This document shows, piece by piece, positions 3,368 through 26,844 of a stretch of DNA of 40,122 nt. The notes beneath the pieces were generated by a model that saw nothing but the letters and a program-made list of their open reading frames with translations, ran no database searches and was not told the origin of the DNA. Numbering within the stretch: position 1 is the stretch's first letter; the number at the start of each line of letters is the position of its first letter. Location of the stretch: positions 1-40,122 of the IMG/VR virus record IMGVR_UViG_3300049215_000769. One strand, 5' to 3'. This DNA is from a virus. The position numbers and the translations under genes were made by a program.

Positions 3368-3414
3368 GCCTTTGAGGAAGTTGAAAATTTTGGTATTCCC
3401 CGGCAAACGCTGAG

Positions 3415-3420
3415 TATAGT
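3415..3420 (+). promoter_or_regulatory. TATAGT box before the packaging genes
   Basis: GTATAGTCC lies 9 bases before the ATG of the small terminase gene. The same box occurs at five other gene boundaries (7356, 9208, 26857, 33889, 38147). It resembles a sigma-70 -10 element; the best -35 in view is TTGGTA at 3390-3395, 19 bases away. If it is a promoter, the message would be almost leaderless. Confidence 0.5.
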
Positions 3421-3429
3421 CCCGCGCCC

Positions 3430-4729: not shown

Positions 4730-5363
4730 TGCGTTCGCCGCGCGGCATGGCAATATCGTGCATGAGGGATTGACGTGGAGCGGGCAAGGGTCTGGTCTTG
4801 AGGAAACCATAGAGAAGACCTTCACGCTGTGTGACCAGCATAAGCTGGATGGCTTCTACTACGATGCAGACGGGATAGGCGGCCAGGCGCGGGATGATGC
4901 TCGCCGCGCCAATGAGCGCCGAGCGAGCAAGCGCTACAAAACTCTGCGGGCTGATCCGTTTCGTGGGTCCGCGAAGGTCTTCGACCCAGAGCGCAAGGCG
5001 CCCGGCACCGACATCCTCAATGAGGACCGTTATCAGAACGCCAAGGCGCAAGCCTGGGACTATCTGTCTCTGCGATGTCGAAATACCTACTTGGCCGTGA
5101 ATGGCAAGCCCTACGACCCGGATTACCTCATCAGCTTCTCATCGGCCATTAAGGAGCTGGCGCTGCTGCGCAGCCAAATATCACAGCCGCAATGGAAGAT
5201 TGCAACGACCGGCAAACTCGTGGTGGACAAGCTGGCGGACGGAGCACCGTCGCCGGACCTGGCCGACGCGGTGATGATCCTGATGGCGCCCAAGCGCCAG
5301 CCGATGAAGATCAACCCCGCGCTGCTACGGGAAACCAATAACCCGTATGCACCCGCCGCATGA
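4542..5363 (+). CDS. Terminase large subunit, nuclease half (frameshifted continuation)
   Basis: Carries the RNase H-like headful/cos nuclease that cuts concatemers. True homology begins at about 4602 (GIIIPSEHF), so the open frame from TTG 4542 includes about 20 non-native codons. The three metal-binding acidic positions are visible in ALDIADLG, GFYYDADGIGG and SPDLADAVMIL. The half is intact to its stop, which overlaps the next ATG by 4 bases. No good independent ribosome site precedes it, so without frame correction or +1 frameshifting it may not be made. This could be a real mutation, a sequence error, or an unusual split terminase. Confidence 0.85.
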   Translation: MSIPSRSRKKSTSATPPALRGIIIPSEHFEACVDAHLKLPQLFKDGGVRCGALDIADLGKNRNAFAARHGNIVHEGLTWSGQGSGLEETIEKTFTLCDQHKLDGFYYDADGIGGQARDDARRANERRASKRYKTLRADPFRGSAKVFDPERKAPGTDILNEDRYQNAKAQAWDYLSLRCRNTYLAVNGKPYDPDYLISFSSAIKELALLRSQISQPQWKIATTGKLVVDKLADGAPSPDLADAVMILMAPKRQPMKINPALLRETNNPYAPAA

Positions 5364-5566
5364 GCCTGCCAGTCGAACAGCTCGTGCGTGCGCTCTTGAT
5401 GCGATCGCGCATTGAGCAGCGTTTACCCCTATTGCCGCACATGATCGAACCCATGGCGCTGGCCAATCTCATCATGCAGGAGCGAATGTATGCCTCGCAA
5501 ATCCGACGCCCCCCGCGCGCCCAGCGCCGAGCAGCTGCCCACGCCCAAGGTAAGGCTGCAGCGTGA
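5360..5566 (+). CDS. Small hypothetical protein between terminase and portal
   Basis: A 68-residue open frame starting with an ATGA overlap on the terminase stop. The first 45 residues look like a helical protein (LVRALLMRSRIEQR, then MIEPMALANLIMQE). The last 23 are basic and low-complexity and lie where the next gene begins in another frame, a 77-base overlap. No family is recognised. Translational coupling to the terminase is the main support; the long overlap with the following gene is odd. Confidence 0.5.
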   Translation: MSLPVEQLVRALLMRSRIEQRLPLLPHMIEPMALANLIMQERMYASQIRRPPRAQRRAAAHAQGKAAA

Positions 5567-5705
5567 GCTGCCCCAGCGTCCTCTGGAGCGGCACGAACTG
5601 ATCGAGCGGCAGCTGGAGACGGCGCGCCGAGAGGCTGCGGAGCGCGCGGCCGCGGAGCCCAAGCCGGCCGAGGAGACGGGCGATGCCCCTGACCAAGAAG
5701 GGTGA
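5490..5705 (+). CDS. Small charged helical hypothetical protein
   Basis: A 71-residue protein rich in Arg, Glu, Ala and Pro, predicted helical from about residue 20 to 55 (ELIERQLETARREAAERAAA). The start has a good AGGAG site (5478-5482) with 7-base spacing, which favours a real gene despite its overlap with the preceding frame. It overlaps the next gene by 23 bases. No family is recognised. Its location between terminase and portal suggests a head-assembly accessory or a packaging regulator, but this is only context. Confidence 0.5.
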   Translation: MPRKSDAPRAPSAEQLPTPKVRLQRELPQRPLERHELIERQLETARREAAERAAAEPKPAEETGDAPDQEG

Positions 5706-5892
5706 GGAGATCAAGGAGAGCATGGAGCGCGAGTACGGCAAGGAGCGCGGCGAGCGCGTGTTCTATGCCTCGCGCAACAAGGGCACGATCAGTGGCGCGG
5801 ATGAGTTGCGCAAGGCTGCCGATTCAGGCAATGCCGAGGCGCAGCGGCTGATGTCCGGTAAGCACGTGAGTGGGCGGGATCGCAAGCGATGA
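5683..5892 (+). CDS. Conserved small phage protein (terminase-portal region)
   Basis: A 69-residue protein beginning MPLTKKGEEIKESMEREYG and containing VFYASRNKG (about 26-34). This K-G...M...YG...VFYAS-NKG pattern recurs in small proteins of many phages and bacteria, usually near portal genes; function unknown. The C-terminus is basic (HVSGRDRKR). It overlaps the portal gene by 4 bases. Confidence that it is a real gene is good because of the recurring pattern. Confidence 0.7.
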   Translation: MPLTKKGEEIKESMEREYGKERGERVFYASRNKGTISGADELRKAADSGNAEAQRLMSGKHVSGRDRKR

Positions 5893-7346
5893 GCGCAGGC
5901 ACGGCAGCGGAGCGGTTCGAAGCGCTGATGGCGCTGATGCCTCGCGAGGCTCCGATTGACTACCGGCGTCATAAGCTGCAGCTGCCGCAGCTGCCTCCAG
6001 CCGTCAAACGAGCTGAGCCGGCGATGGCGATGGACGACGCCACCAATGGCAATTTCAACTATCTCAATACCGTCGCGGGGTCGATGGCCTACGGCCTGTA
6101 TTTCCCCGGCTACCCTTGGCTCGCGGAGCTGGCCCAGCGCTCTGAATACCGGCAGCCCGTCGAGACCACTGCCAAGGAGATGACCCGCAAATGGATCACG
6201 CTCAAGAGCAACGGCAAGGGCGATAAGTCCGAGCGCATCGGGGAGATTGAGGACGAGTTCCGGCGCTTCAATGTGCAGGAGCTGTTCCGAAAGGCCGCCA
6301 CGCACGATGGCTTCTATGGCCTGGGACAGATCTTTATCGATATCCGCGGACAGGAAAAGGAGATGGACCTGCCGCTGGAGCTCACGTCCAAGACCATCGA
6401 GAAGGATTCACTCAGGGGCTTCACGAACATCGAGCCCATGTGGGTCTCGCCGATCGCATGGAATAGCAACGATGCGACCAAGCCCGATTTCTATGTTCCG
6501 GACAGCTGGATGGTGCTCGGCAAGCGGGTACATAGTACGCGCCTGCTGAGCTTCATCAGCCGTGAAGTGCCCGACATCATCAAGCCGGCCTACAACTTTG
6601 GCGGCATCTCGCTCACGCAGCTGATTGAGCCGTATGTGTCGCGCTGGCTCAAGACCGTGGACGCGGTCAATCGCCTGATCAGCAACTTCAGCGTGATCCT
6701 GCTGCAGACGGATATGGCTGCGGTACTGAGCGGCGGGGACGATGGGGATTATCAGAACCTCATTGCGCGCCTGAAGTTCTTCACCCAGGAGCGCAACAAC
6801 CAGGGTGTCTTCCTGACTGACAAGGAGCGTGAGGTGCTGGAGCAGCTGGCCGTACCGCTGTCGGGCCTCTCGGAGCTGCAGGCGCAGGCCCAAGAACACA
6901 TGGCCGCGCCCACTCACCTGCCGCTGGTGGTGCTTACGGGCATCACCCCTGCCGGGCTCAATGCCTCCAGCGAAAGCGAGATGGAGGTATTCCATGACTG
7001 GATCCACAGCCAGCAGGAAGCGTTGTTTCGGCCGCACCTGGACAAGATCCTGCGGCTCATCCAGCTGAACCGGTGGGGCAATGTCGATGACGACATTACC
7101 TACGAGTTCGTACAGCTGAAGGAGCTCGATGGGGAGGCGGCCGCACGCGTGCGCAAGATGGCCGCTGATGCCGATGTGGCATTCATTGGGGCTGGCGTGG
7201 TCGATGCCCATGAGGTGCGCGAGCGCTTGTCTCTGGATCCGGACAGCGGCTACATCAACCTGGACCCGAACAAGGAGATTGATCCGCCGGAACTGCAGCT
7301 GGCAGAGGCGACGGCCAATGCGGGAGGCGATGACGGTGAAGACTGA
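5889..7346 (+). CDS. Phage portal protein (DUF1073 type)
   Basis: Forms the dodecameric ring at the capsid vertex through which DNA passes. The 485-residue protein has the typical portal order: an N-terminal arm, then YPWLAELAQRSEYR...ETTAKEMTRKWI (about 75-105), a domain with GFYGLGQIFIDIRG (about 138-152), and a central LPLVVLTGITPAGLNASSES segment (about 342-361) followed by the clip and stem helices. The family PF06381 is also named after the anti-CBASS Acb1 fusions, but the C-terminal phosphodiesterase part is absent here. It overlaps the preceding small gene by 4 bases and is followed by a 125-base leader region before MuF. Confidence 0.88.
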   Translation: MSAGTAAERFEALMALMPREAPIDYRRHKLQLPQLPPAVKRAEPAMAMDDATNGNFNYLNTVAGSMAYGLYFPGYPWLAELAQRSEYRQPVETTAKEMTRKWITLKSNGKGDKSERIGEIEDEFRRFNVQELFRKAATHDGFYGLGQIFIDIRGQEKEMDLPLELTSKTIEKDSLRGFTNIEPMWVSPIAWNSNDATKPDFYVPDSWMVLGKRVHSTRLLSFISREVPDIIKPAYNFGGISLTQLIEPYVSRWLKTVDAVNRLISNFSVILLQTDMAAVLSGGDDGDYQNLIARLKFFTQERNNQGVFLTDKEREVLEQLAVPLSGLSELQAQAQEHMAAPTHLPLVVLTGITPAGLNASSESEMEVFHDWIHSQQEALFRPHLDKILRLIQLNRWGNVDDDITYEFVQLKELDGEAAARVRKMAADADVAFIGAGVVDAHEVRERLSLDPDSGYINLDPNKEIDPPELQLAEATANAGGDDGED

Positions 7347-14007: not shown

Positions 14008-14576
14008 GCGCCAAGCTCATCGGAGGCCAGAAGCTCAGCAAGGTGCTCGCACAGATCAGCGAGCGTGCAGGCGGCCGCAGCGGCGCGCACGTCAAGGTTG
14101 GGTATCTGGCAGGGGCCACCTATCCCGACGGCACGCCGGTGGCTCAGAACGCGTTTTGGCAGGAGTTTGGAACGCCCGGAGCGCAGTTCCCTATTCCTGC
14201 GCGTCCGACGTTTCGCACGATGATCAAGCAGCACATGGCCGAGTGGGGCGGCCAGCTTGCCCGAGTGCTCAAAGGCGCGAACTACGACCGGCATACGGCG
14301 CTCGGTCGCATGGGCGAGCTCATCAAGGGCGAGTTGGTGGATTCGCTCCTGCATGCGGACGTCGCCCCGCTGTCGGCGGTGACGCTCATGTTGCGCAAGA
14401 TGCGAGATGAGAATCCGGGCCTGAGGGTCTCACGCGCCACAGTGTTCGAGGCAATCCGGCGCGTGAGGGCTGGCGAGCAGGGCGCAACCGGTACGCGCGC
14501 CAAGCGCCTGGTGAATACCGGGGTGCTGGAGCGCGCGCCGGACTATGAGGTGGTGGATGGCGCTCAATCTCCATAA
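13995..14576 (+). CDS. HK97 gp10-like tail completion / neck protein
   Basis: From ATG 13995 the protein has 193 residues. It contains HVKVGYLAGATYPDGTPVAQ and AFWQEFGTPGA...FPIPARPTFR, the hallmark of gp10-like proteins (V-x-V-G-...-A-x-x-x-E-F-G-T-...-P-x-R-P-F). These proteins complete the tail or neck so that heads and tails can join. An in-frame start further upstream (13893) was rejected because it lies inside the previous gene. It overlaps the next gene by 20 bases. Confidence 0.78.
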   Translation: MATVSAKLIGGQKLSKVLAQISERAGGRSGAHVKVGYLAGATYPDGTPVAQNAFWQEFGTPGAQFPIPARPTFRTMIKQHMAEWGGQLARVLKGANYDRHTALGRMGELIKGELVDSLLHADVAPLSAVTLMLRKMRDENPGLRVSRATVFEAIRRVRAGEQGATGTRAKRLVNTGVLERAPDYEVVDGAQSP

Positions 14577-15102
14577 CGCTGTCCGAAGCGCCATCCCGGG
14601 CATCAATCCGGATGTGCAGGCGCTCTATCTCGCCTCGCGTGGGTTTGCGCTCAGCGCGACCACCGGCGTGTCTACGCCGGTCTATGCGCCGCCCTATTGG
14701 GTGACGGTGCAGGTGCAGCCCCCGTCGGGTCGCGACCTTCAGCACATCAACATGCTGAACCTGCAGGGTGTGGTCCGCACGATCTACATGTACGGCAACC
14801 CTCAGGCGATCAATCGCGTCAGGGCCGGCGGTGCGGATCTGATCATGATGCCGCAGTGGCAGCCGCATGTGACCGTCGACAACCGCGGCGGCACGGTCAC
14901 CGACAACCTCACCAATCCGATTCTCGGCGCGTTCCCGGTGGACAACTGGATCGTGTCCGCAGTGGACGAGTGGTACGACATCGAAGGTCTGGGCTGGACG
15001 AAGCTCTACGTCACGCTCCAGACCGATGGCCCCTACATCGTGTTCGACAGCAACCGGCTGCCGGTCCTCGACAGCAACGGCTCTCTGGTGACCTCGCAAT
15101 GA
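14557..15102 (+). CDS. Neck / tail-completion structural protein
   Basis: The 181-residue protein starts MALNLHNAVRSAIPGINPDV, followed by a TYAPP-like turn and VTVQVQPPSGRDLQHINMLNLQGVVRTIYMYG, then DLIMMPQW and a C-terminal KLYVTLQ. This layout is typical of small neck proteins next to gp10-like genes. ATG 14557 is preferred over 14545 because homologous N-termini begin with M-(A)-L-N-L-H. It is the last normal virion gene before the signal-peptide cassette, and its stop overlaps the ATG of the first cassette gene. Confidence 0.65.
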   Translation: MALNLHNAVRSAIPGINPDVQALYLASRGFALSATTGVSTPVYAPPYWVTVQVQPPSGRDLQHINMLNLQGVVRTIYMYGNPQAINRVRAGGADLIMMPQWQPHVTVDNRGGTVTDNLTNPILGAFPVDNWIVSAVDEWYDIEGLGWTKLYVTLQTDGPYIVFDSNRLPVLDSNGSLVTSQ

Positions 15103-17015
15103 AGAAGCTACTCATACTGCTGGCGTTCCTCATTCCTGGCGTGCAGGCCGCGGAGGTCGGCGGCTACGGGAATGCCACCACCCCACTCTCGGGCACCGAG
15201 CGATTGCTGGCCGACCAGAACATGGTCACGGTCAACATCACCCCCGCACAGATCGCGAGCTACATCGCCTCGGGCGGCTACATCTACCAGATGCTGCCCG
15301 CGCTGGTGAACGGCTATGTGCTCTCTAACAATGGCACGACGCTGCAGTGGGTGCCGAACAGCGGCGGGGGTGGCGGTGGGGGCACGGTCACGAGTGTGGG
15401 CCTCACGATGCCAGCCGGGCTGTCGGTGGCCAACTCTCCGGTCACGACCAACGGCACCATCAACGTGACCACGACGCTCAGTGGGCCGATCAAGGGGACC
15501 GGCTCAGGATTCTCGGCGGCCACCTATGCCGACATCGTAAACCTGTTCAGCGGCTGCACAGGCACGGAATACCTAGCGGCCAACGGAAACTGCTACGCGG
15601 CCAGCGGTTCGGGCACAGTCACCAGCGTCGGACTCACCGCGCCGTCGTGGTTGACCGTCAGCGGCTCGCCAGTTACGACCTCGGGCACACTGGGGCTGGC
15701 AGCGGCTTCTCAGTCCGCCAATACCTTCCTGGCCTCCCCCAGCGGAGCCTCGGGAGCGCCCTCATTCCGCGCAATTGTCAGCGCGGACCTGCCCGCCACG
15801 ATTGCGGCGAATACCACCGGCAATGCGGCCACTGCGACGGCGCTGGCCACTTCGCCCACCCAGTGCGGCACGGGACAGTTCGCCACCGGTGTCGCTGCGT
15901 CGGGCAACGCCAACTGCGGCACGCACCAGGTCAACGGTGTGGCGCTCACTGGGACCACGCCGATCAACTTCATCAACAGCGCCGCGACCAATGGTCTGAC
16001 GCTGACCTTCACCAATACGACTGCGGGGGTCATTCAGCTTGGGCTCTCCGGCACGCTCGCCAACGCAGGACTTACCAACTCCAGCGTGACGCTCAACGGG
16101 CAGGCGATCTCTCTCGGCTCCTCTGGCAACGTGAACAACGGGGCCGCGCAGTACTCGATCGCCCTGAATGGCGCAGCGGGTGCCGCGATCGCTGGCATCA
16201 CGCTGCCGGGTGCGACCGGCATTTACTGCATCGATTACACCAGCCTGACCGCGAACCCCACTCTGACGAGCTGCCCAGCGGCGCCCACCCTGCAGACCAA
16301 CGGCACCAACAACTCCAGCCAGACCACGCTGAACATCCAGAGTGGCACGGGAATCAGCGTGTCGAATCCCTCGGGAGGAAACGTCACGGTCAACCAGACG
16401 CAGGCGATCAACGCGCAGACTGGCACGACCTACACGGTTGCTTCGACCGATGCGTCCAAGTTCATCACCTTCAACAATGCGAGCGCGGTGGCGGTCACGC
16501 TACCCCAAGCCACCGGCAGCTTCGGTGCTGGGTTCGCCATCACGGTGCAGAACCTCGGTGCCGGCACGGTCACGATCACGCCGACCACGAGCACGATCAA
16601 CGGTCAAGCGAGCCTGACTATTCCGACCGGTTACGGCTGCGGCATTGTCAGCGACGGCACGAACTACCAGCTCGGCAACTGCCCGGCCGTGCGGGACATG
16701 CCGATCACCCTTTCAGCTGGCGCCACGGTCACGCCGAACTGCTCAGCGAATAACAACGTCGTGACGATCACGGCGAACGTCACCTTCGCAGTGCCGGCGA
16801 ATTGCACTCCCTTCCAGGGACAGCGGATCTTCTTCGATGTCATCGCCACTTCGGCCTACACGTACACCTTTACCGGTTACTTGGCCGCTGGAAGCAGCGT
16901 GGCCTACCCCACGGCGCACTCCGCGACCGGCGCGGATCACATGGAGCTGATCTACGAAGGAACAGCGGCCACCAAGGGATGGGTGCTTGATGCGATCAAT
17001 CCAGGTATCCCGTAA
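15099..17015 (+). CDS. Secreted fibre-like beta protein with Sec signal peptide
   Basis: A 638-residue protein that begins with a clear signal peptide (MKKLLILLAFLIPGVQA, cleavage after residue 17) and continues with modules typical of phage tail fibres: two copies of G-T-V-T-S-V-G-L (95-102, 172-179) each followed by S-P-V-T-T, a LFSGCTGTEYLAANGNC module (149-165), an N-T-F-L-A-S-P-S-G segment and a long beta region with TDASKFITFNNASAVAVTLP. No enzymatic motif is seen. The start overlaps the neck gene by 4 bases; an open frame upstream to 14697 lies inside that gene and was rejected. Export is unexpected for a virion protein. It could be an exported adhesin or receptor decoy. Confidence 0.72.
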   Translation: MKKLLILLAFLIPGVQAAEVGGYGNATTPLSGTERLLADQNMVTVNITPAQIASYIASGGYIYQMLPALVNGYVLSNNGTTLQWVPNSGGGGGGGTVTSVGLTMPAGLSVANSPVTTNGTINVTTTLSGPIKGTGSGFSAATYADIVNLFSGCTGTEYLAANGNCYAASGSGTVTSVGLTAPSWLTVSGSPVTTSGTLGLAAASQSANTFLASPSGASGAPSFRAIVSADLPATIAANTTGNAATATALATSPTQCGTGQFATGVAASGNANCGTHQVNGVALTGTTPINFINSAATNGLTLTFTNTTAGVIQLGLSGTLANAGLTNSSVTLNGQAISLGSSGNVNNGAAQYSIALNGAAGAAIAGITLPGATGIYCIDYTSLTANPTLTSCPAAPTLQTNGTNNSSQTTLNIQSGTGISVSNPSGGNVTVNQTQAINAQTGTTYTVASTDASKFITFNNASAVAVTLPQATGSFGAGFAITVQNLGAGTVTITPTTSTINGQASLTIPTGYGCGIVSDGTNYQLGNCPAVRDMPITLSAGATVTPNCSANNNVVTITANVTFAVPANCTPFQGQRIFFDVIATSAYTYTFTGYLAAGSSVAYPTAHSATGADHMELIYEGTAATKGWVLDAINPGIP

Positions 17016-17042
17016 TGCCTACCTTCTCGTGGATCAGATCGC

Positions 17043-18680
17043 ATGCGTAAGCTGACGACGGCCATACTCGGGGCGGTCCTCATCGCGACCTGCAGCGGCT
17101 TTCTGTCACTCGGCGGCAGTGCCGCCACGAGCAGCGGCAATCCGTTCAATCTGCCGCGTGTACTGGCGACCGATAACATCCTGACGTTCCTCGGCAGCTT
17201 CAAGGCGCCGACCAGCTTCGTCTATCGCGGCGGCGCGATGTCGGTCAACGGCTCGACCATGTATCTGTCGGGCCTGTACTACTACAACAGCGGTTCCAGC
17301 TACGTGAACGGCATTGGCTCGTTCACCATCCCTACGTTGACCGGCGCACCGGCCCTGGACGGTTCCAACGGAACGGCCACAGCCCTCGTTGCGCCCACTA
17401 CCCTTGTGGACGGCTCCGGCAATCCCATCCTCGACTGCGGGCAGGGCGCGAGCTACGGCAACAATACCTATTGCGTCTTTACCGGCTCGCTGGTGTATGG
17501 CGGCAAGCTCTACATGACTGTTGGCCCCTACTACGATCAGTCCACGAGCGCACTGCCGGGATTCTTGGTATCGACTGATACTGGCATCAGCACTTGGGGC
17601 CTCGTCAACGCGGCCAGTGGCGCAGGCTGTCTGAGCAGCAGCCCTGGATGCACTCAACGCTATTTCGCTGGCCCTCTTGGAGTGCTGCCGAGCATCTGGC
17701 AGCCTTACTTTGGCGGTCCTTGCTACGAGTCGGCTGGCCCCGGTGGGCTCTCCAACAATACGAGAAGCCCCAACGGATTTAGCCTCGCGACCTTCAATTG
17801 CGCTGCTTACAACGCCGCTGGCGGGTCGATCTCGGTCCATGAGGCGCTGGACTATTACTACCAGACCGTCAGCCGCAACCCGTCTCAGTACCAATTGGCT
17901 TATCGCTCATTCTCTGGGCCATTCCCGACGGGCGGCAGCGGTGTCTCCTACACGCTGACCTCGCAGCCCACAACGGCAACAACATCCGTCACGCTTACCG
18001 CTGCCTTCAGCAGCAATACGGCCGCCACCATTGGCCCGTTTCAGATCACCTTCAATATCACGGGCGGCGGTACAGCGACGCGCATCGTTCACCTGACGAA
18101 CGGCATGACCGCTGTTCCTGATGGGACGACGACTTGCTATTACGGCGTGACGGGCTGCGTCTCTTTCCCAGCCTTGACTGAGTGCAATCCAAGCTGCACT
18201 ACGGCCGTGACGATTGCCCCGATGGGGGATAACTACTACAGCGAATACGAGGGTGGCGACCTCGGATACGGCTTCTTCGTTCCAGGCAGCCGCAGCTTCC
18301 TGGTCATCAACATCCATCAATATGGGCCGTCAGGCGCGGCAGGCAGCGGATGCGATAAAGGGGCCAGCGGTAGCAACGACACGCCGTTATCGCCGGACAC
18401 GAGGCACTATCGGCGCCTGCAAATCAGCGCTTATGACGCGAATGACCTCTATGCGGGCTATAACGGCTCGCAGGCGGTGTACGTAGCGGCTCCCTATGCG
18501 GAGTGGGACTTCCCAAACTGGCAAGCTAACTGGGGCGGCACGACCAACTGCATCAATGGTGGCCCTCCCGGTAATTTCTACTTCGATCCGAACACCAGCA
18601 TCCTCTACGGAACATTTTCGAGCAATCAAGATGGCTCGGGCCACATGATCGTCAACGAGTGGCAGGTATCCGGCACATGA
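17043..18680 (+). CDS. Secreted beta-rich protein with signal peptide, unknown family
   Basis: A 545-residue protein with a signal peptide (MRKLTTAILGAVLIATC, cleavage near residue 28). After that it is Gly/Ser/Tyr-rich beta sequence with repeated short blocks (ILTFLGSFKAP, GAMSVNGSTMYLSGL, GSFTIPTL) that suggest a beta-propeller or beta-sandwich. Residues about 300-365 form an Ig-like insert (TSQPTTATTSVTLTAAFSS). Several Cys pairs (for example TECNPSC) fit an oxidising extracytoplasmic location. It follows the fibre-like gene by 27 bases; its stop overlaps a 32-codon remnant. No catalytic residues are recognised. Confidence 0.65.
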   Translation: MRKLTTAILGAVLIATCSGFLSLGGSAATSSGNPFNLPRVLATDNILTFLGSFKAPTSFVYRGGAMSVNGSTMYLSGLYYYNSGSSYVNGIGSFTIPTLTGAPALDGSNGTATALVAPTTLVDGSGNPILDCGQGASYGNNTYCVFTGSLVYGGKLYMTVGPYYDQSTSALPGFLVSTDTGISTWGLVNAASGAGCLSSSPGCTQRYFAGPLGVLPSIWQPYFGGPCYESAGPGGLSNNTRSPNGFSLATFNCAAYNAAGGSISVHEALDYYYQTVSRNPSQYQLAYRSFSGPFPTGGSGVSYTLTSQPTTATTSVTLTAAFSSNTAATIGPFQITFNITGGGTATRIVHLTNGMTAVPDGTTTCYYGVTGCVSFPALTECNPSCTTAVTIAPMGDNYYSEYEGGDLGYGFFVPGSRSFLVINIHQYGPSGAAGSGCDKGASGSNDTPLSPDTRHYRRLQISAYDANDLYAGYNGSQAVYVAAPYAEWDFPNWQANWGGTTNCINGGPPGNFYFDPNTSILYGTFSSNQDGSGHMIVNEWQVSGT

Positions 18681-18775
18681 GGAAGTTACTGCTGCTGATT
18701 GCTTGCCTTGGATTCTCCGTCAATGCTACGGCAGCTGCGAGACAGGTGATTATCGGAGTGTGGCAGATATCATGA
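18677..18775 (+). pseudogene. Signal-peptide-only remnant (32 codons)
   Basis: ATG 18677 overlaps the previous stop (ATGA) and encodes MRKLLLLIACLGFSVNATAA, a complete signal peptide. After it come only 12 more residues before TGA, which again overlaps the ATG of the next gene. It looks like the 5' end of a cassette gene whose body was lost by deletion. It may still serve as a coupling leader or a tiny exported peptide. Confidence 0.5.
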
Positions 18776-19617
18776 AGTATCTTTTAATTACCTTACTGCT
18801 TCTTTGCCCGTTGTTTGCGCGAGCAGCACCAGCACTGCTAGGAGTAGCGAAAAATCGCGTAGTCGGGACCACCAGCAACCCGGTCAACTATACGCCAAGC
18901 TCCGGCAGTACCCTCATTGTTTGGTTCAATGCTGCGACAGCGGAAACACTTAGCATCTCTGATACCCAAGGCAATACGTGGAACGTCGCGCATGCCTACG
19001 CGGACGGCGGCACTGGTGCGTATCTGGCGGTTTATTACGCACAGGGCGTTACTAACACAGCCGATACGGTCACGATCTCATACGGGACCGCTGCCGCTAG
19101 CGTGATCTATTTGGCTGATTACAACGGCGTGGGCAGCTTCGACAAGGTTTCCACCGTGGCAAGCGGCAATAGCGCTAGCCCGGCTACGTCTGCGGTGACA
19201 CCGGCACAATCGGGAGAACTGGCACTCGCACTCATTGGGACCAATGCGTCAGCCATCGTCACGTTCTCCAGTTGGACCGGCGGCTTTAACCAGGAAGATG
19301 CCTATACGGCCAGCGTGCCATCTGGAGTGTGGGCGGATCAAGTGCTCGCTGGGACCGGCAGCGTGAGCGGGGGCGCCACGATCAGCGCTTCGATTCGTTG
19401 GTCAGCGTTGACTGTGCTGTTTGAGGCGAGCGGCGCGCCAGCCGGCAATGCCTCCAATTTCTTTATGGTTGGCTCTACGATGGGCGCCGAGCAAATACAT
19501 AGCCTGCCCGAAAGCCTGAGCAGTCCTCATACGCTTCTATCTGAAATCCAGCGTTCTGCAGCACGGACACTAACTCATCGGAGAGTTGGCGTTTGCGAAG
19601 GATGTGCTCGTGGCTAG
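18772..19617 (+). CDS. Secreted beta-sandwich protein with signal peptide
   Basis: A 281-residue protein with a signal peptide (MKYLLITLLLLCPLFARA) and a mature domain of the pattern S-G-S-T-L-I-V-W...ISDTQGNTWNVAHAY...YLAVYYAQGVTN-ADTVTISYG...VIYLADYNGVGS-FD...ELALALIG. I recognise this as a common exported jelly-roll-like module, function unknown; the gene at 25484 encodes a divergent relative. Homology ends near LTVLFEASG (about residue 224). The last 40-50 residues are encoded opposite the 3' end of the FkbM gene, so the tail is probably not native. Base composition is less GC-rich than the flanks. Confidence 0.62.
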   Translation: MKYLLITLLLLCPLFARAAPALLGVAKNRVVGTTSNPVNYTPSSGSTLIVWFNAATAETLSISDTQGNTWNVAHAYADGGTGAYLAVYYAQGVTNTADTVTISYGTAAASVIYLADYNGVGSFDKVSTVASGNSASPATSAVTPAQSGELALALIGTNASAIVTFSSWTGGFNQEDAYTASVPSGVWADQVLAGTGSVSGGATISASIRWSALTVLFEASGAPAGNASNFFMVGSTMGAEQIHSLPESLSSPHTLLSEIQRSAARTLTHRRVGVCEGCARG

Positions 19618-19687
19618 GGCTCCGATAGTCCCAGTCAAGGATGGGAACGGAATACTCCATCACCACACGGTTGACCTTGCGCCAGAC
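19475..19687 (-). pseudogene. FkbM methyltransferase, C-terminal part beyond an in-frame amber stop
   Basis: Downstream of the TAG at 19688-19690, in the same frame, the minus strand keeps coding for a sensible C-terminus (VWRKVNRVVMEYS... then LVSVLQNAGFQIEAYED ...GYVFARR) that ends at TAG 19475-19477. FkbM proteins normally continue like this after K-I-D-C-E-G-A-E. The frame is intact, so only one codon separates it from the main part. It overlaps the 3' end of the + strand gene that stops at 19617. Confidence 0.6.
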
Positions 19688-20350
19688 CTAAATCGGCGCG
19701 GCAGGGATGAAGTCGAACTCGGCTCCCTCGCAGTCAATCTTCATCAATTCGCAGTGCTCCACTCGCGCCAAGAGATTGCTGAGAGTCATGGCCGGGACAT
19801 CCGTATAGCCGCGTCCAGCGTTGAAGCGCAAAGAGTGGTAACCGGTATCGCTGCCGGTGAACAGTCGGCACGTGCCATCGCTCGCAGCTACGGCAGCGCC
19901 GATGACTTCGGCGTCAATGCGATTGGCGGCGACGTTGCGGCGCAAGTAGCGGAGGTTGTCAGGGTGCGGTTCGACAGCGATCACTCGCGCACCGTAGCGC
20001 GCCGCAGCCAGTGTGAAACAACCCATATTCGCGCCGATGTCGATCACGATCTGGCCGGCAGAGGGGCGGTAGCCAGGACGGAAATACTCTTCCCGCTGCA
20101 GCACGTTCTCAATGAAGGCTTCGTCGGTGGAGCAGCGCCGAAAGCTGACGCGATATCCCCCGAGCTTCGCGGTGCGAGAAACGATTCCCGCGCGCTTGAG
20201 AATGCGATCCCAGCGCTGGCGCAGAACGTAAGGCATCCGGTGCTCCACGAGCAGTGCTCGGCACGCGCGAGTCAGCGCATTGCCGCTGGGTTTTTCAAGG
20301 ATGGGCGCGCGAAAGATGGTCGGTTCTGGAATGGCCATATCGTTGTACAT
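19688..20350 (-). CDS. FkbM-family SAM-dependent methyltransferase (amber-interrupted)
   Basis: FkbM-type enzymes O-methylate sugars or antibiotics using SAM. The open part has 220 residues: motif I VIDIGANMGCF (102-112), acidic residue of motif II in AVEPHPDNL (125-133), and LMKIDCEGAEF (202-212). It ends at TAG 19688-19690, but homologous sequence continues in frame to 19475 (see separate entry), so the full protein would be about 290 residues. It is the only sizeable minus-strand gene, placed between two sets of secreted-protein genes, which is typical of a cargo (moron) gene. ATG 20350 and ATG 20338 are both possible starts. Sugar methylation of host surface glycan is an inference. Confidence 0.75.
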   Translation of the reverse strand: MYNDMAIPEPTIFRAPILEKPSGNALTRACRALLVEHRMPYVLRQRWDRILKRAGIVSRTAKLGGYRVSFRRCSTDEAFIENVLQREEYFRPGYRPSAGQIVIDIGANMGCFTLAAARYGARVIAVEPHPDNLRYLRRNVAANRIDAEVIGAAVAASDGTCRLFTGSDTGYHSLRFNAGRGYTDVPAMTLSNLLARVEHCELMKIDCEGAEFDFIPAAPI

Positions 20351-20412
20351 AACCCCCCCGGCGGAAAGCTCGGCGAGCCAGCATACACCGCGCCGATATT
20401 TGGAGCGATCAG

Positions 20413-21543
20413 ATGAGCATTAAGAAATGGCTATCCCCGCTCCTGGTGCTGCTGGCGGCCGGCTGCGCCGCCATCCCCAACGGGCCGCCCCAGGCTCCCC
20501 ATCGGGTGCTCACGAGCACCGCGGACGGCGGGGTCACGAGCGTTCAGGACGTGGAGCAGAAGACGCACCTGATGCGCCTGGGCGGTACACCCCCGGCCCA
20601 GCAGGTCATCAATATCGGCACGGCCGCCAACAGCGGCAATGGCGACCCGATCCGAACGGCCTTCACCAAGGACAACACGAACACCACCGCGCTGTTCTCG
20701 ATGTTCGGCACGTCCTCGAACCTCTACAACAACGGCACGGCGCTCGCCACGGATATCGCGGGCCTGTTCACCGGTTGCGGACCCTCGACACCGGCTCTGG
20801 GCTACCAGGGTGCCTGCGTCTCGGGCGGCGGAGGAGGCGGGACGCCCGGCGGCTCGAACCTTCAGATCCAGTATAACAACGCGGGCTCCTTTGGCGGATA
20901 CACGCCAGCGGGCGCCATCGGCTACCTGGACTCGGGCACCGCCAACGCCCAGACCGGCACCACCTACACGCTGGTCTCGGGCGACGCCAACAGCGAAGTG
21001 ACCATGTCGAATGCGTCAGCGAACACGCTGACCATTCCGGCCAATGCCACCGTGGCCTTCGCGACCGGCACGATCATCACGGTGCAGGAGCTATCCACCG
21101 GCATCACCAGCATCGCGCCGGCGTCTGGCGTGACCATCGAGTCCCCGACCTACGGCGCTTCGACCTCTCAGCAGTATTCCCTCGGCGGCATCTACGGCCA
21201 GATCCAGCTGCAGAAGGTCGCGACCAACACCTGGAACGTGATCCTCTGGCAGCCGGGCAAGACCACCTACACGCTCAGCGGCACCTGTACGACCTCCGCC
21301 TCCACGGGCGGCAACACCGGCGGCCATATCACCATGAGCGGCACCGGCAGCTGCACACTGATTGTGACCCCTGGCGGCGGACTTCAGGCGCCGGACTACT
21401 GGGTGGGGCGCATGTCCGATACGACCCAGCCGACCATTCCAGGATGGGGTGAGACCTCCAGCAGCGCCAGCTCAGTGACCTTCACGGTACCGGCGGCCGT
21501 GGCGGCCAGTGACGTGCTGACGTTCACGGTGACGATGGAATGA
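20413..21543 (+). CDS. Fibre-like lipoprotein
   Basis: A 376-residue protein with a type II signal peptide (MSIKKWLSPLLVLLAAGC, lipobox LAAGC with Cys18). Ala at +2 predicts outer-membrane sorting. The mature part has phage-fibre modules: NIGTAANSGNGDPIRTAFTK (about 57-76), a DIAGLFTGCGPSTPALGYQGAC module matching that in the 15099 gene, a poly-Gly linker, then AQTGTTYTLVSGDANSEVTM, also shared with that gene. It is therefore a lipid-anchored relative of the first cassette protein. GGAG at 20401-20404 precedes the start. Its stop overlaps the glycoside hydrolase gene by 4 bases. Confidence 0.72.
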   Translation: MSIKKWLSPLLVLLAAGCAAIPNGPPQAPHRVLTSTADGGVTSVQDVEQKTHLMRLGGTPPAQQVINIGTAANSGNGDPIRTAFTKDNTNTTALFSMFGTSSNLYNNGTALATDIAGLFTGCGPSTPALGYQGACVSGGGGGGTPGGSNLQIQYNNAGSFGGYTPAGAIGYLDSGTANAQTGTTYTLVSGDANSEVTMSNASANTLTIPANATVAFATGTIITVQELSTGITSIAPASGVTIESPTYGASTSQQYSLGGIYGQIQLQKVATNTWNVILWQPGKTTYTLSGTCTTSASTGGNTGGHITMSGTGSCTLIVTPGGGLQAPDYWVGRMSDTTQPTIPGWGETSSSASSVTFTVPAAVAASDVLTFTVTME

Positions 21544-24500
21544 AGCGGCTCGCAGCGTTCCTGACGCTGCTGGCGGTCTGCGGGCTCGCCAGTGCGCAGT
21601 TCAATCCGGTCTCGCTGGGCCTGGGGTTCACTGCCACCGGCAGCACACCGCCCACGACGCTGCAGATCACCACCGCAAGCCTTTCTTCTGCCACCGTCGG
21701 GAGCGCCTACAGCCAGACGCTCACTGCGACTGGCGGCACGGGCACCGGTTACAGCTTCAGCGAGCTGGTCAACTACCCGAACACCGATCGGTGGGAATAC
21801 CTCACGCCCAGCGGCACGATCGGTGGCACCCCCGACAACGCCGAGACCGAGACGGTCACCTATCAGGTCACCGACTCGGGCGGGAACACCGCACAGAAGA
21901 CGTTCTCACTGCCGGTCTCGGCCTCGGGCGCGCTGACCATCGTCAGCCCGACGACGCTCCCGGCTGCCGTCAACAACGGCTATTACGCCTACAAGATCAT
22001 CATCAGCGGCGGCACGCCCCCCTATACGTGCAGCGGCACGAGCGCGCAGCCGCTCACGATTACGCCTGATTGCTGGATCGAAGACACCCCGACCGCGACG
22101 GGCACGGTCACGGTCGGTACGGTCACGGTCACCGATGCCGTGGATGCCACGGCGAGCTTCTCGCCATCCTTCACGGTCAACTCGACGCTCACGCTCGGTG
22201 GCATCGATCAGACTGTTGGGATCATCCGGCTGCCGCCGGCCTATGCCGGCCAGTATTACCAGTACCAGTTCCATGCCTACGGCGGCAGTGGCTCGGGATA
22301 CACCTACACAGCCATCAATGGCCTGCCGGCCTGGGCGGCTGTGTCCGCCTCCGGCCTGCTCTCTGGCACACCGACCTCCAGTGGCTCGATCGAGCCCACC
22401 ATCAAGGTCACCGACAGCAGCAGCAATACGGCCACCGAGCCCGCGCTGGTCAACGTCCTGAATGCCGCGGGCGTCAACCGCCCGAGTTACAACGCCTCGG
22501 TCAATAACGGCTTCTTCACGCTGAACGGTCGCATCTACGACCCGAACGGCAAGCCGTTTCTGATCCACGGCCTGGACCGCAACCACTTCGACAACGTCAG
22601 CTGGGCCGGCGCGGCCAGCATCAACTGGAACCCCGGCCCCTACCTGCTGACGTACAACCAACCGCTGTCCGTGGGCTCCTCAGTGCCCACCGCCGATATC
22701 TCAGCGGCAGCAGCCTGCACGCCCTGCAAGGGCTATGCGTTCTGGGCCACCTGGAGTTTCTTCGAGGGCGGCGCGGGCGGCACGCAGGGCAATTACACCG
22801 TCGGCCCTTCCAGTGTGCTCGGGCAGATATTCACCGCGGTCGGCAACAACAACCAGAAAGTCATCATCCAGTTCAACCCCGACCAGTTCAACGCTACCGG
22901 GCTGCAGGCGGTCGGGGACGGCTACACGCTGCCGCTGTACCTCACGCAGAACTCTTCCTTCGGCGCGGCCAACGTCGGCACCTCCGGGGTGAGCGTCAAC
23001 CCGTCTTATCCCTACGGCTGGTACGAGCAGCAGACCGGAGGCTACGGAGCCAACTGGGTAGGCAATACGAACGTCTATAACGCGTTATTGGCGACGTTCC
23101 AGGCCATCGCCTCCCAGTGGGATGGCGACCCGCGCTTTGAGGCCATCATCGTCGTCGCAGACGATGTGATGTACCCCTACAACGGCACCGGCCTTCAGGG
23201 CTCGACGTACTTCACGCAGCTCACCAACTTGATGCTCGCCATCAAGAGCTACTTCCATCACACAAACGTCGTGCTGCAGATCGCCGGGCAGCAGAGCACC
23301 GCCAGCCAGCAGATGGTGCAGACGCTGGTGCAGGCCGGCGTCATGATGGGCGCCTCCGATACAGCGGGCGCCACGGCCTGGAACGACACCTACACCAGCG
23401 TCACCTTTAGTTCGATCTCGGGCACGACCGGGACGCTCGCCAGCCCCCTGGCCGGATGGGAAGCGGGCAACACCTACACCTGCAAGCTCTCCACCGGCCA
23501 GACCGTCCAGATGACGGTCAGCACGAGTTCCCCGTATACCGCGGTCACATTCTCGCCAGCCGTGACCGGCAGCCCATCGGCCACGGCGACCATCAGTTAC
23601 GCCTGGCCGCAGCTCGGCCCGGAGATGATGGCCTGGGCGGGCATTCAGTCCGCATTCTCTTCCTGGGCACCTCCGTCGCCTGCGCTGCAGACCTACTCCA
23701 CCTCGTTCATGGAGGCGCAGGAAGGGGACTTCTCGAACACGGTCGGCTCACCTGCATTTCCCACGACCTTCACTGCAGCCGACATGGTGCAGGCGCTGAA
23801 TGACAACGTGACCGGCGGGGTCGGGTATCACGGCTCGCACTTCCTGATGAGCTACGGGAACTCGACCGCCTGGGCTGCGCGGCTGGCTTCCTACAACGGA
23901 ACCTCCGGCCTGACGAATACCGGCTACCCCTCGGTGTACGGCTCGGGAGGCGGCCAGAACGGCGCGCTCAGCGGCTCCAACGTCGTGCGGGAGTTCTCGG
24001 GCTTTGGCCAGTACAACCAGAGTGCCACGGCGATGGCCTCTCAGGTCACCAATCAGTACGCGAACAACGGCATCGTGCCGATCATCACGGTGTACGAGCT
24101 GCAGGAAGCCTTCACGGCCTCGGCCAGCGGCACCACGCTCACGGTCACCGCAGTCAACACGACGCCCTCGATGAGCAACGATGGGCTCATCGTCAAGAAC
24201 ATGCAGGTCATCGGCACCGGCATCCCGAACAACCCGCAGTGGACCGGCTCCATCTCCAGCACCACGATGAGCGTGACGGCCATCAGCTCCGGGCCCCTGT
24301 GCGTCGGCATGACGGCCTCGGGGTCCGGTTTCTCCACCACGATTACCGCAGTCCCCGGCGGCGGCGCATGCAGCAGCAGCACCGGCAGCTACACGGTCTC
24401 TTCCAGCCTGACGGAAAGTTCGCAGCCGATCTACGGCAACAACCCAGTCATCACGAATACAGGCGGGGGCACCGGCACCTATTCGCTCAACTACCAGCTC

Positions 24501-25487
24501 AGCGTGGGCTCGGAGTCGATGACGGGGACGTGTGTCACCAGCGGCAATAACGATCCGAATGCGGTCGTGGCCGCGACCAACATGCTGGTGTACGCGCTGA
24601 ATAATGGGCTGGGCTCGGTCGGCAGCAAGATCATGATCAACGTCGCCAACGAGTGGGGCGTGAGCCCGCTCTACAGCGGCCCGAACACGGAGGCGAACTG
24701 GGAAAGCTACTACGCGACCGCGATCTCGTCGCTCCGTTCGGCGGGCTTCTATGGCCCCGTGGTCGTGGACAGCCTGAATGATGCCGAGGATTTCACGGTG
24801 TTCTCGGGTGGCTATGCCCAGACCCTGATCAATTCGGACCCGTACAAGAACGTCGTGATCTCGATGCACCTGTACAACACGACGAACCTTGAAGGGCAGA
24901 TTACGAGCATCAGTCACGGGACCAATGCCGTCATCAAGTTCGCTTACAACGGCGCCACCAATCCGTGGAGCACGTTGACCAACTTTCTCAATCAGGTGTA
25001 TGTCACCGGCGTCTCGGGCATGACCCAGATCAACGGCCAGACCATCACGGTGACCTCGATCGGCAGCTGTTCGGCGGGCGCGTGCAGTCTGAACACGAAC
25101 CTCGATACCTCCTCCTATGGGACGTACACGAGCGGCGGTCAGGTGTTCGACGGCGCGCACTACCAGATCCGCTTCGCCTCGCTCGCCAATTATCAGGCGA
25201 TGGGCATTCCGATCATCGTGGGCGAGTACGGGCCTCCGGGATTGAACAACACCACGGCGGGTCTCTCGCAATTCGCTGCGGCTTCCATCTCCTACAACAT
25301 CGGGGAGATCGAATGGGCGTGGGATGACAGCAGCTGCTCGGGCTCCTGGTCGGGCTGGTTCAACGACACGCTCAGTTGCGGAAACTACTCCAAGCCCTCG
25401 GATCTCACCGAGCCCGGCATGGATGTGATCGACAATCCCCGAACGGGACGCAGCATGCTCGGTGTGCCTGTGCCGGTGTTCCATTGA
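21540..25487 (+). CDS. Secreted multidomain glycoside hydrolase (GH5-like) with Ig-like and FCCH-like inserts
   Basis: A 1315-residue exported protein. A signal peptide (MKRLAAFLTLLAVCGLASA) is followed by putative-Ig (He_PIG-like) repeats at about 38-310 (ATVGSAYSQTLTATGGTGTG; LPAWAAVSASGLLSGTPTSS). An N-G-R-I-Y-D-P-N-G-K-P-F segment (about 329-340) opens the enzyme part. Residues from about 810 resemble a GH5 mannanase/cellulase barrel: NVVREFSGFG, IVPIITVYELQ, INVANEWG with acid/base Glu1038, ISMHLYN, and IIVGEYGPPG with nucleophile Glu1229. Three beta inserts interrupt it: about 607-688, 860-993 and 1118-1200; the last resembles an E1-FCCH-like phage module. Residues 350-800 are not assigned. 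Likely degrades a surface or environmental polysaccharide. It is coupled at both ends to its neighbours. Confidence 0.78.
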   Translation: MKRLAAFLTLLAVCGLASAQFNPVSLGLGFTATGSTPPTTLQITTASLSSATVGSAYSQTLTATGGTGTGYSFSELVNYPNTDRWEYLTPSGTIGGTPDNAETETVTYQVTDSGGNTAQKTFSLPVSASGALTIVSPTTLPAAVNNGYYAYKIIISGGTPPYTCSGTSAQPLTITPDCWIEDTPTATGTVTVGTVTVTDAVDATASFSPSFTVNSTLTLGGIDQTVGIIRLPPAYAGQYYQYQFHAYGGSGSGYTYTAINGLPAWAAVSASGLLSGTPTSSGSIEPTIKVTDSSSNTATEPALVNVLNAAGVNRPSYNASVNNGFFTLNGRIYDPNGKPFLIHGLDRNHFDNVSWAGAASINWNPGPYLLTYNQPLSVGSSVPTADISAAAACTPCKGYAFWATWSFFEGGAGGTQGNYTVGPSSVLGQIFTAVGNNNQKVIIQFNPDQFNATGLQAVGDGYTLPLYLTQNSSFGAANVGTSGVSVNPSYPYGWYEQQTGGYGANWVGNTNVYNALLATFQAIASQWDGDPRFEAIIVVADDVMYPYNGTGLQGSTYFTQLTNLMLAIKSYFHHTNVVLQIAGQQSTASQQMVQTLVQAGVMMGASDTAGATAWNDTYTSVTFSSISGTTGTLASPLAGWEAGNTYTCKLSTGQTVQMTVSTSSPYTAVTFSPAVTGSPSATATISYAWPQLGPEMMAWAGIQSAFSSWAPPSPALQTYSTSFMEAQEGDFSNTVGSPAFPTTFTAADMVQALNDNVTGGVGYHGSHFLMSYGNSTAWAARLASYNGTSGLTNTGYPSVYGSGGGQNGALSGSNVVREFSGFGQYNQSATAMASQVTNQYANNGIVPIITVYELQEAFTASASGTTLTVTAVNTTPSMSNDGLIVKNMQVIGTGIPNNPQWTGSISSTTMSVTAISSGPLCVGMTASGSGFSTTITAVPGGGACSSSTGSYTVSSSLTESSQPIYGNNPVITNTGGGTGTYSLNYQLSVGSESMTGTCVTSGNNDPNAVVAATNMLVYALNNGLGSVGSKIMINVANEWGVSPLYSGPNTEANWESYYATAISSLRSAGFYGPVVVDSLNDAEDFTVFSGGYAQTLINSDPYKNVVISMHLYNTTNLEGQITSISHGTNAVIKFAYNGATNPWSTLTNFLNQVYVTGVSGMTQINGQTITVTSIGSCSAGACSLNTNLDTSSYGTYTSGGQVFDGAHYQIRFASLANYQAMGIPIIVGEYGPPGLNNTTAGLSQFAAASISYNIGEIEWAWDDSSCSGSWSGWFNDTLSCGNYSKPSDLTEPGMDVIDNPRTGRSMLGVPVPVFH

Positions 25488-26317
25488 AGCGGCTGATCGC
25501 AATCCTTGCGCTCCTGTGCGCGCCGGCCGCCTTCGCCTACAACAGCTCGGGTGTTGTGGCGCTGCCGAACTACACCACCACGACCTCCTACACCACCACC
25601 TGGAGCGTGAGCGCAGGGGATACGCTGCTGGTGCTTGAGAACACGATCGATAACAACAACAACACGAGCGCACTGCAATCCGTGTTCGACGGGCAGGGCA
25701 CCTACACCCAGGATGCCGTCTATGACTGGCAGACGCATTCCTGGTTCGGGGTGTGGCGGCTGAGCAATGCGAACGCCGGCACTCACGCGATCGATCTTCA
25801 GCCGATCAGCGGCGGCGATGACTACAGCACGATTGTGGTACTGGAGCTGCCGGGGACATGGTCCTTCGACACCACCTGGCTGTACTCAGGGAACAGCTAC
25901 GGGACCAGCATCTCCTTCAACGCCTCAGCCCCAACCGGATCGGGGAATCTCCAGATCGGCATGGCATCGATCAATCTCACGAGCGATCCACCCTCGCAAA
26001 CGCCCGTGGGATGGACCAGCCTCGGGCTCACCGGTAGCCAGTGGCCCTCCGGCGGCTGGGCCTATATCAGCTCCAATTCCGCGCAAACTCTGAACTGGGG
26101 CACGACCATGACCGCGGCTTCCTGGGGTGGCCTTGTCGTGGACTATCAGCAATCGGCCGTGGCCTGCTCACATAACTTCTGGTCCTCGACCGGCGGCTGG
26201 ACTCAGCCCAACGGCTCCAGCGGATCATTCTGGAATGTGGCTTCTGGCACCTTCTCCACGCCGAACTGCTCCACCGGTTCCTTCTGGCGGCAGGACGGCA
26301 ACAAGGCGGCGAACTGA
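25484..26317 (+). CDS. Secreted beta-sandwich protein with signal peptide (TTG start)
   Basis: A 277-residue protein starting at TTG 25484, which overlaps the hydrolase stop as TTGA, the same geometry as the ATGA overlaps of its neighbours. The signal peptide is MKRLIAILALLCAPAAFA. The mature domain (SAGDTLLVLENTIDNNN, AVYDWQTHSWFGVWRL, TIVVLELPGTWSFD, GNLQIGMASINL) follows the same strand order as the 18772 product, so the two are likely paralogues. The C-terminus is Trp/Ser-rich with three Cys. Its stop overlaps the ATG of the neck terminator, so the cassette is in one coupled chain with virion genes. Function unknown. Confidence 0.65.
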   Translation: MKRLIAILALLCAPAAFAYNSSGVVALPNYTTTTSYTTTWSVSAGDTLLVLENTIDNNNNTSALQSVFDGQGTYTQDAVYDWQTHSWFGVWRLSNANAGTHAIDLQPISGGDDYSTIVVLELPGTWSFDTTWLYSGNSYGTSISFNASAPTGSGNLQIGMASINLTSDPPSQTPVGWTSLGLTGSQWPSGGWAYISSNSAQTLNWGTTMTAASWGGLVVDYQQSAVACSHNFWSSTGGWTQPNGSSGSFWNVASGTFSTPNCSTGSFWRQDGNKAAN

Positions 26318-26844
26318 TGACCGTCAACACAACCCCGATCCTGAGTGATGTGCTCACCGATGTGGTGGCCGTCATCAATTCCATCGTGCCGCCCAAGGTC
26401 TCGGTCATGCGTGGTATCGCCAACCGCGTGGCCGCCCCTAACCCGATTCCAGGGTTCGTGGTCGTTACCCCGCTGTATCAGGGCCGGCTCGCCTGGAACG
26501 TGAACCAGACGCCCGCGGGGCCTTTGCCGAGTACCGAGACGGTGCGGCAGTCCACACGCGCGGACCTGCAGATCGACTTCTATGGGACCTATTCAGGCGT
26601 CTGGGCCGCTCAGTTCGTGACGCTCTGGCGTGATGAGTACGCCTGCGCCCTCATGCAGAACAGCCAGCCACTGTATGCCGATGAGGCTCGCATGATCCCG
26701 CTGGTCGACAGCGAGCAGCAGTACGAGGAACGCTGGATGGTCGAAGCGGCCGCCCAGTACAACCCCGTGACCACCGTATCTCAGGGCTACGCGGACGCGC
26801 TGGATGTCACCTTGATCGACGTGGAGCAGCGTTACCCGACATGA
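26317..26844 (+). CDS. Neck terminator protein (gp12-like)
   Basis: The 175-residue product matches the phage neck terminator pattern: MRGIANRVAAP...GFVVVTPLYQGRLAWNVNQ, then T-x-x-QSTRADLQIDFYG, WAAQFVTLWRDEYAC, QPLYADEARMIPLVDSEQQYEERW and FADALDV-like (YADALDVTLIDVEQRYP). These proteins cap the tail and receive the head connector. Normally it would follow the 14557 neck gene directly, so the 11.2-kb secreted-protein cassette interrupts the module. A TATAGT box follows its stop. Confidence 0.82.
   Translation: MTVNTTPILSDVLTDVVAVINSIVPPKVSVMRGIANRVAAPNPIPGFVVVTPLYQGRLAWNVNQTPAGPLPSTETVRQSTRADLQIDFYGTYSGVWAAQFVTLWRDEYACALMQNSQPLYADEARMIPLVDSEQQYEERWMVEAAAQYNPVTTVSQGYADALDVTLIDVEQRYPT

Follow-up and report, generated by a model that had tools for sequence, protein, structure and literature searches.

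We analysed the whole of IMG/VR record IMGVR_UViG_3300049215_000769 (40,122 bp, hereafter the window), which belongs to a contractile-tailed phage encoding terminase, portal, a MuF-type protein, protease, major head protein, neck proteins, a DUF3383 sheath, tube, tape measure, baseplate and tail fibre. The subject of this report is an 11.2-kb block at 15099-26317, in which six full-length plus-strand genes and a 32-codon remnant all begin with signal peptides (SP) of the Sec type. It has been inserted between the genes for head completion and the neck terminator. The phrog_1912 head gene and the PF23961 terminator adjoin or overlap in Pantoea phage PA-1, Burkholderia phage BcepNY3 and Pseudomonas phage Amjad_SA; in the window, 11.2 kb separates the two.

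The genes are listed below and are referred to by their first position. L-numbers denote phage loci sampled for comparison, mostly metagenome contigs, which were selected by sequence motif and ordered by identity.

14545-15102, plus strand: head-completion/neck protein, left border of the insertion (phrog_1912, E 3e-24)
15099-17015, plus strand: SP-bearing fibre-like protein, 638 amino acids (aa), 10 cysteines in the mature part (SP rules, homologues)
17043-18680, plus strand: SP-bearing protein, fold not assigned, 545 aa, 12 cysteines
18677-18775, plus strand: 32-codon remnant, SP followed by the C-terminus of a 17043-type gene (short match seen by eye)
18772-19617, plus strand: SP-bearing paralogue of 25484, C-terminal end lost (both match L142:11773)
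19475-20350, minus strand: FkbM-type methyltransferase gene (PF05050, E 2.4e-15)
20413-21543, plus strand: fibre-like protein with lipoprotein-type SP, 376 aa (phrog_8780, 3e-14; phrog_677, 3e-4)
21540-25487, plus strand: SP, immunoglobulin (Ig)-like repeats and GH5 beta-mannanase-like region, 1315 aa, 12 cysteines
25484-26317, plus strand: SP-bearing protein of the 18772/L142:11773 family, TTG start, 277 aa, 2 cysteines
26317-26844, plus strand: neck/tail terminator, right border of the insertion (PF23961, E 3e-19; phrog_1876, E 2e-42)

Signal peptides, junctions and cysteines of the block

Signal peptides were called with a purpose-written rule set that looks for a charged start, a hydrophobic core and either an AxA motif or a lipobox, and that makes no use of cysteines. 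Each of the seven N-termini has an n-region with K or R, a hydrophobic core of 8-11 residues and a cleavage-type c-region, so that the rule-based calls confirm the Sec-type starts noted for the six full-length genes and the remnant. Signal peptidase I (SPase I) sites are predicted in 15099 (VQA|AE), 18677 (VNA|TA), 18772 (ARA|AP), 21540 (ASA|QF) and 25484 (AFA|YN). The start of 20413 is that of a bacterial lipoprotein, with the lipobox LAAG|C and the cysteine at +1 (residue 18), while cleavage of 17043 is ambiguous between a weak lipobox, LIAT|C, and an SPase I site near GGSA|AT. Such N-termini exceed chance: all six full-length plus-strand genes carry them, compared with 5 of 187 genes in close structural relatives.

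The genes were also described as joined mostly by 4-base overlaps, and this holds at five of the eight junctions (15099, 18677, 18772, 21540 and 25484). The other three are a 1-base overlap at 26317, a 27-base gap (17015/17043) and a 795-base gap (19617/20413). The last contains the minus-strand FkbM methyltransferase gene, which was absent from the first-pass annotation and breaks the row of genes.

The cysteines of the proteins provide an independent sign of an oxidising destination, because the SP calls ignore them. The mature proteins contain 10 (15099), 12 (17043), 2 (18772), 4 (20413, in addition to the lipid cysteine), 12 (21540) and 2 (25484) cysteines, an even number in all six when the lipid cysteine of 20413 is excluded. 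Cysteine density is 2.3 times that of the remaining virion genes in the window (43/3314 versus 37/6621, p 1.9e-4).

Composition and content of the block

Chimeric assembly was rejected as an origin of the block: start and stop codons overlap at both of its borders, which makes a chimeric contig unlikely. Recent foreign origin of the whole block was rejected as well, its GC content and GC content at third codon positions (GC3) being those of the flanks with the exceptions of 18772 and, mildly, 17043. No sigma-70-like promoter was recognised in the block, a result that is uninformative either way. The terminator, 15099 and 21540, each used alone as a query against viral contigs, brought up no relatives.

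Fibre-type domains were found in two block proteins, 15099 and 20413. The former consists of the SP, a short N-terminal domain and fibre-shaft repeats; its N-terminal domain is shared with fibres that lack an SP (L007, L026, L113, L191) as well as with fibres that have one (L118, L121, L132, L133), and SP-bearing homologues of the protein lie at L132:6501 and L142:6660. In 20413 a tail-fibre domain matches Gordonia minor tail proteins (5e-12), whereas the resemblance of one region to the N-terminal part of T4 gp9/gp10 is weak and falls short of the cut-off (PF07880, E 0.03, 14.7 bits against 25), as is the support from phrog_677. The GH5-like region of 21540 had no Pfam match but aligns with the beta-mannanase 1bqc (phmmer E 8e-8), including the regions of the acid/base and nucleophile glutamates (NEW/NEP and GEYG/GEFG); the Ig-like repeats of this protein were recognised by reading the sequence.

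The protein encoded by 17043 matched no protein family or phage protein, and tblastn against isolate phages gave no match for 17043, 18772, 25484, L142:11773 or L132:2466. AlphaFold2 models built from single sequences had a predicted local distance difference test (pLDDT) score of 34 both for 17043 and for the GH5 part of 21540 and were set aside. The C-terminus of the remnant 18677, RQVIIGVWQIS, is similar by eye to that of 17043, HMIVNEWQVSGT, and the remnant therefore appears to be an SP fused to the last part of a 17043-type copy whose remainder was deleted. The paralogues 18772 and 25484 are related at BLASTP E 2e-4, in an alignment that includes the SP. The FkbM gene is broken by a single in-frame TAG at 19688-19690, past which the frame resumes, and its 3' part is antisense to the end of 18772, where the C-terminal end of that gene is lost.

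Two further observations concern the record itself. The terminase large subunit lies in two overlapping frames (3656-4729 and 4542-5363), which suggests a frameshift or a sequencing error, and the record opens with an ATG at position 1 and closes with a stop codon at 40122, as if trimmed to gene borders.

A tail fibre with and without a signal peptide

The first-pass annotation rested in part on the premise that virion proteins lack Sec signals. This premise fails for the tail fibre that follows the DUF2612-type protein, of which the window has the ordinary form:

36296-37402, plus strand: tail fibre of the window phage, SP-free, behind a DUF2612-type protein (phrog_12796, E 4e-49)

Of 64 distinct orthologous sequences, 44 are SP-free and 20 SP-bearing, a ratio that is not a natural frequency because sampling was by motif with ranking by identity. 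By N-terminal domain and by position these are the same gene, namely the phrog_12796 tail fibre of DUF3383-sheath myophages, and the two forms are orthologues: wherever the sequence suffices, a DUF2612-type gene lies upstream (19 of 19 SP-bearing and 41 of 41 SP-free cases). The SP-free forms begin with a methionine at the domain itself, and in the SP-bearing forms the SP is fused just before this old start; in several of them (L200, AAAA|MQQSQVPPKF; L050, L221, L258) the residue after cleavage is that very methionine. An AxA motif was found by script in 18 of the 20 SP-bearing fibres and by eye in one more. Among these fibres the N-terminal sequence is 25% identical, compared with 64% for the domain behind it, with the architecture of n-region, hydrophobic core and c-region kept.

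The two forms also differ in their cysteines. SP-bearing fibres contain 1.69 cysteines per 100 aa and SP-free fibres 0.52, a 3.3-fold difference. Even and odd counts in complete genes stand at 13:1 and 10:23, respectively (p 9e-5), and a particular cysteine pair, NC before ASLTDGFPP with GGC after it, is present in 12 of 20 SP-bearing but 0 of 44 SP-free forms (p 4e-8); both p values overstate independence, because the link between SP and cysteines is clustered by descent. The SP-bearing fibre of L200 contains a Tail Collar domain. At about ten SP-bearing fibre loci the large gene or genes that follow are also SP-bearing, and the sequence read there shows no large fibre without an SP. A fibre domain related to phrog_12796 is also found in the Bcep781 group, Orisa01 and Acetobacter phage phiAO1, and in the last of these (L273:1-32) a catalase-annotated gene lies near the baseplate genes.

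The neck site in related phages

The region before the sheath was compared in 33 relatives, 30 of which have both anchors (phrog_1912 and the terminator). Related phages had been named as the place to look for SP-bearing genes between neck genes, and such genes are indeed present in at least 8 of these 30: four in a row over 5.2 kb in L291, three in L294 and in L321, two each in L316 and L320, and one each in L295, L308 and L312. One more occurs in L323, where the left anchor is missing. The neck site is thus a recurrent insertion spot of DUF3383 myophages. The proteins of the window's block are not homologous to the SP-bearing genes at this site in the relatives, so that the site recurs and the cargo does not. 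SP-bearing neck genes were found in 5 of 9 phages with an SP-bearing tail fibre, compared with 3 of 21 with an SP-free one.

In many relatives a small protein encoded at the neck site (PLGYQQLT...AVRWRDDG) has no SP and mostly no cysteine, and in L308, L294, L321 and L312 it has an SP together with exactly one cysteine pair. As it too exists in both states, it likewise contradicts the premise, which should not serve to rule out virion membership. Further SP-bearing families at the site (L294:2750-3346; L320:3233-3829, minus strand; L294:3346-4413; L321:3844-4902) are shared between relatives and had no Pfam match.

L316 and L045 belong to one record, and L045 is identical to Rhizobium freirei PRF 81 over 12,321 bases; a cultured host therefore exists. 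The prophage of this strain has both an SP-bearing cassette at the neck site and an SP-bearing fibre with the QWN-type N-terminal domain described below. Further cultured hosts were sought in the bacterial order to which the Rhizobium strain belongs, and this added only a weak match.

Signal peptides on fibres and cassettes of other phages

Across about 160 sampled phage loci, even and odd cysteine counts in proteins of at least 250 aa are 73:25 for SP-bearing and 230:271 for SP-free proteins (p 2.4e-7), and runs of at least three SP-bearing genes are more numerous than expected (6 versus 2.0, and 8 versus 0.9). Fibres with the QWN N-terminal domain have an SP in 31 of 33 distinct cases, 30 by the predictor and one (L055:8712) by eye. 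The GTVTSVGLT shaft was seen in 64 proteins, of which at least 15 have an SP; these contain 1.23 cysteines per 100 aa, compared with 0.35 in the rest.

A sister cassette at L142:6660-12582 consists of three SP-bearing genes with 4-base overlaps that are homologous to 15099/20413 and to 18772/25484; other SP-bearing cassettes were seen in L121, L132, L133, L134, L059, L060 and L081. Beside the L142 cassette, an acyltransferase 3 gene (L142:12552-13601, minus strand) is convergent with the 25484-type gene, which parallels the position of the FkbM gene beside 18772, and is possibly a surface-modification cargo. L023 has two successive SP-bearing tailspike-like genes (3108-4559 and 4537-6546). The N-terminal domain of the first is SP-free, starting at its methionine, in PAE2 (L024:4025) and P26218 (L027:2995), and the SP form adds cysteines. 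SP-bearing genes also lie just upstream of tail genes (phrog_394, phrog_376) at L134:7303-9946 and L163:7185-9413; these two loci had no DUF3383 sheath match and represent another head/tail junction with SP genes.

Interpretation and alternatives

Export of the block proteins is, as a prediction from sequence, well supported. We propose, with a probability of about 0.62, that the block is an appendage-type gene array whose products are read late, exported, oxidised in the periplasm, freed by lysis and then either docked on virions or left free. The array, inserted at a recurrent spot, would be read and translated together with the late virion genes. Sec would export the proteins, 20413 probably being lipidated, and the signals would be removed. 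Folding with disulfide bonds would take place in the periplasm, and lysis would liberate the mature proteins. These would then follow one of two branches: 1) docking on virions as tail or neck fibres that are completed outside the cytoplasm, or 2) acting near the lysing cell as free adhesins and glycan-cleaving enzymes. Late expression, actual export, disulfide formation, docking and enzyme activity are inferred steps of this scheme. Docking outside the cytoplasm is plausible because fibre domains are retained and because, in the orthologous fibres, the exact mature N-terminus is kept. Since syntenic fibres exist with and without an SP, the block proteins may be virion appendages rather than free effectors.

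Several observations weigh against this proposal. The window's own tail fibre (36296) has no SP, the block proteins lack homology to the neck-site SP genes of relatives, and 20413 looks like a lipoprotein, a better fit for a membrane-held protein than for a virion fibre. Part of the array has decayed (the remnant 18677 and the truncated 18772). The SP trait of the tail fibre has changed 3-6 times on the tree with its link to the cysteine pair clustered by descent, and an independent-pairs test of SP against cysteine pair was not significant.

The main rival, which we consider distinctly less probable, is that the products are secreted and stay free, as adhesins and glycosidases which break down matrix, hide receptors or alter a lysogen's surface and never enter the virion; a role as free adhesin or mannanase may apply to 21540 and to the lipoprotein 20413. 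The mannanase-like GH5 region behind an SP, the lipobox of 20413 and the surface-modification-type genes convergent beside the 18772/25484-type gene (FkbM here, acyltransferase 3 in L142) all suit it, but it leaves aside the fibre-type domains retained behind the SP in 15099 and 20413, the same kind of SP on orthologous tail fibres and the translational overlap with late virion genes. The first-pass annotation had proposed an exported adhesive and glycan-acting set built into the structural operon, with biofilm degradation, superinfection exclusion or lysogenic conversion as its possible roles. We retain such a set on the strength of the SPs, the GH5-like 21540 and the fibre domains of 15099 and 20413, and depart from that account where it makes the proteins free effectors rather than virion parts. 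Lysogenic conversion fits the SP genes less well, because they overlap with late genes on both sides.

It is improbable that the block is a passenger array, made up of captured genes that now do little and are tolerated as long as the operon stays intact. The remnant 18677, the truncation of 18772, the in-frame stop in FkbM and the lack of the block at the same site in many relatives would be natural for such an array; five long intact frames, even cysteine counts, an intact GH5 motif, mostly genome-like GC and codon use and the recurrence of the theme in unrelated phages would not. Slightly less credible still is that the hydrophobic N-terminus is an uncleaved virion anchor or a loading tag comparable to the leader peptides of contractile injection systems. 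The proteins are encoded among virion genes, and in Photorhabdus virulence cassettes loading is known to depend on the leader (PMC11495950), but the cysteine pairs were gained together with the SP, and we reject an uncleaved anchor because the N-terminal sequence is not conserved (25% versus 64% identity) while its three-part architecture and AxA are retained. Finally, an artefact of assembly or start-codon choice, to which a metagenome contig and a rule-based predictor might be prone, is very unlikely: start and stop codons overlap at either border, comparable cassettes occur in independent contigs as well as in the genome of Rhizobium freirei PRF 81, and the cysteine parity test does not depend on which start is chosen.

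The proposal of an exported appendage array allows a wider, more tentative reading, to which we give somewhat less than an even chance, namely that a broad group of tailed phages sends receptor-binding fibres and neck appendages through Sec to be oxidised in the periplasm, and that their virions are finished outside the cytoplasm, either at lysis or later. Under that reading, the window's neck array would be the largest exported-appendage set in this analysis.

Comparison with known systems

In the textbook view, the assembly of tailed phages takes place entirely in the cytoplasm, before the cell lyses, and we found no description of SP-bearing tail fibres in the open-access literature. The joint gain and loss of the fibre SP and of disulfide-type cysteines suggests a second route of export, oxidative folding and late docking or shedding, by which the attachment proteins of some tailed phages may leave the cell rather than being assembled in the cytoplasm. 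Either outcome, docking or shedding, would alter views of host range, of receptor competition after lysis and of fibre expression, since such fibres should be produced with their signal and in an oxidising compartment. The question is directly testable because the cultured Rhizobium freirei PRF 81 prophage has both the cassette and the fibre.

The phrog_12796 fibres of isolates whose N-terminus was read or annotated, such as PA-1, Amjad_SA and others, have no SP; the SP-bearing forms come from metagenome records. In T4, the genes for whisker fibritin and the short fibre adjoin neck genes 13-15, so that fibre genes lie beside neck and tail-terminator genes as in the window, a precedent for this gene order; unlike the products of the window's block, the T4 proteins have no Sec signal and are assembled in the cytoplasm. 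Phages also encode outer-membrane or lipoprotein exclusion factors, such as Llp of T5 and Cor. Like 20413 with its lipobox, these are exported phage proteins, but they are small products of single, early or prophage genes, with neither fibre domains nor an array in a virion operon. The predicted enzyme 21540 resembles GH5 beta-mannanases (1bqc) in that both catalytic glutamate motifs and the flanking blocks align, and it differs in its large inserts, in the Ig-like repeats in front and in its place in a phage late operon. Signal-arrest-release (SAR) endolysins are phage lysis proteins that use the host Sec route (PMC3765740); they resemble the block proteins in being late phage proteins that pass through Sec, and differ in being lysis enzymes rather than fibre-type adhesins, with an arrest-release anchor that is left uncleaved (PMC3765740).

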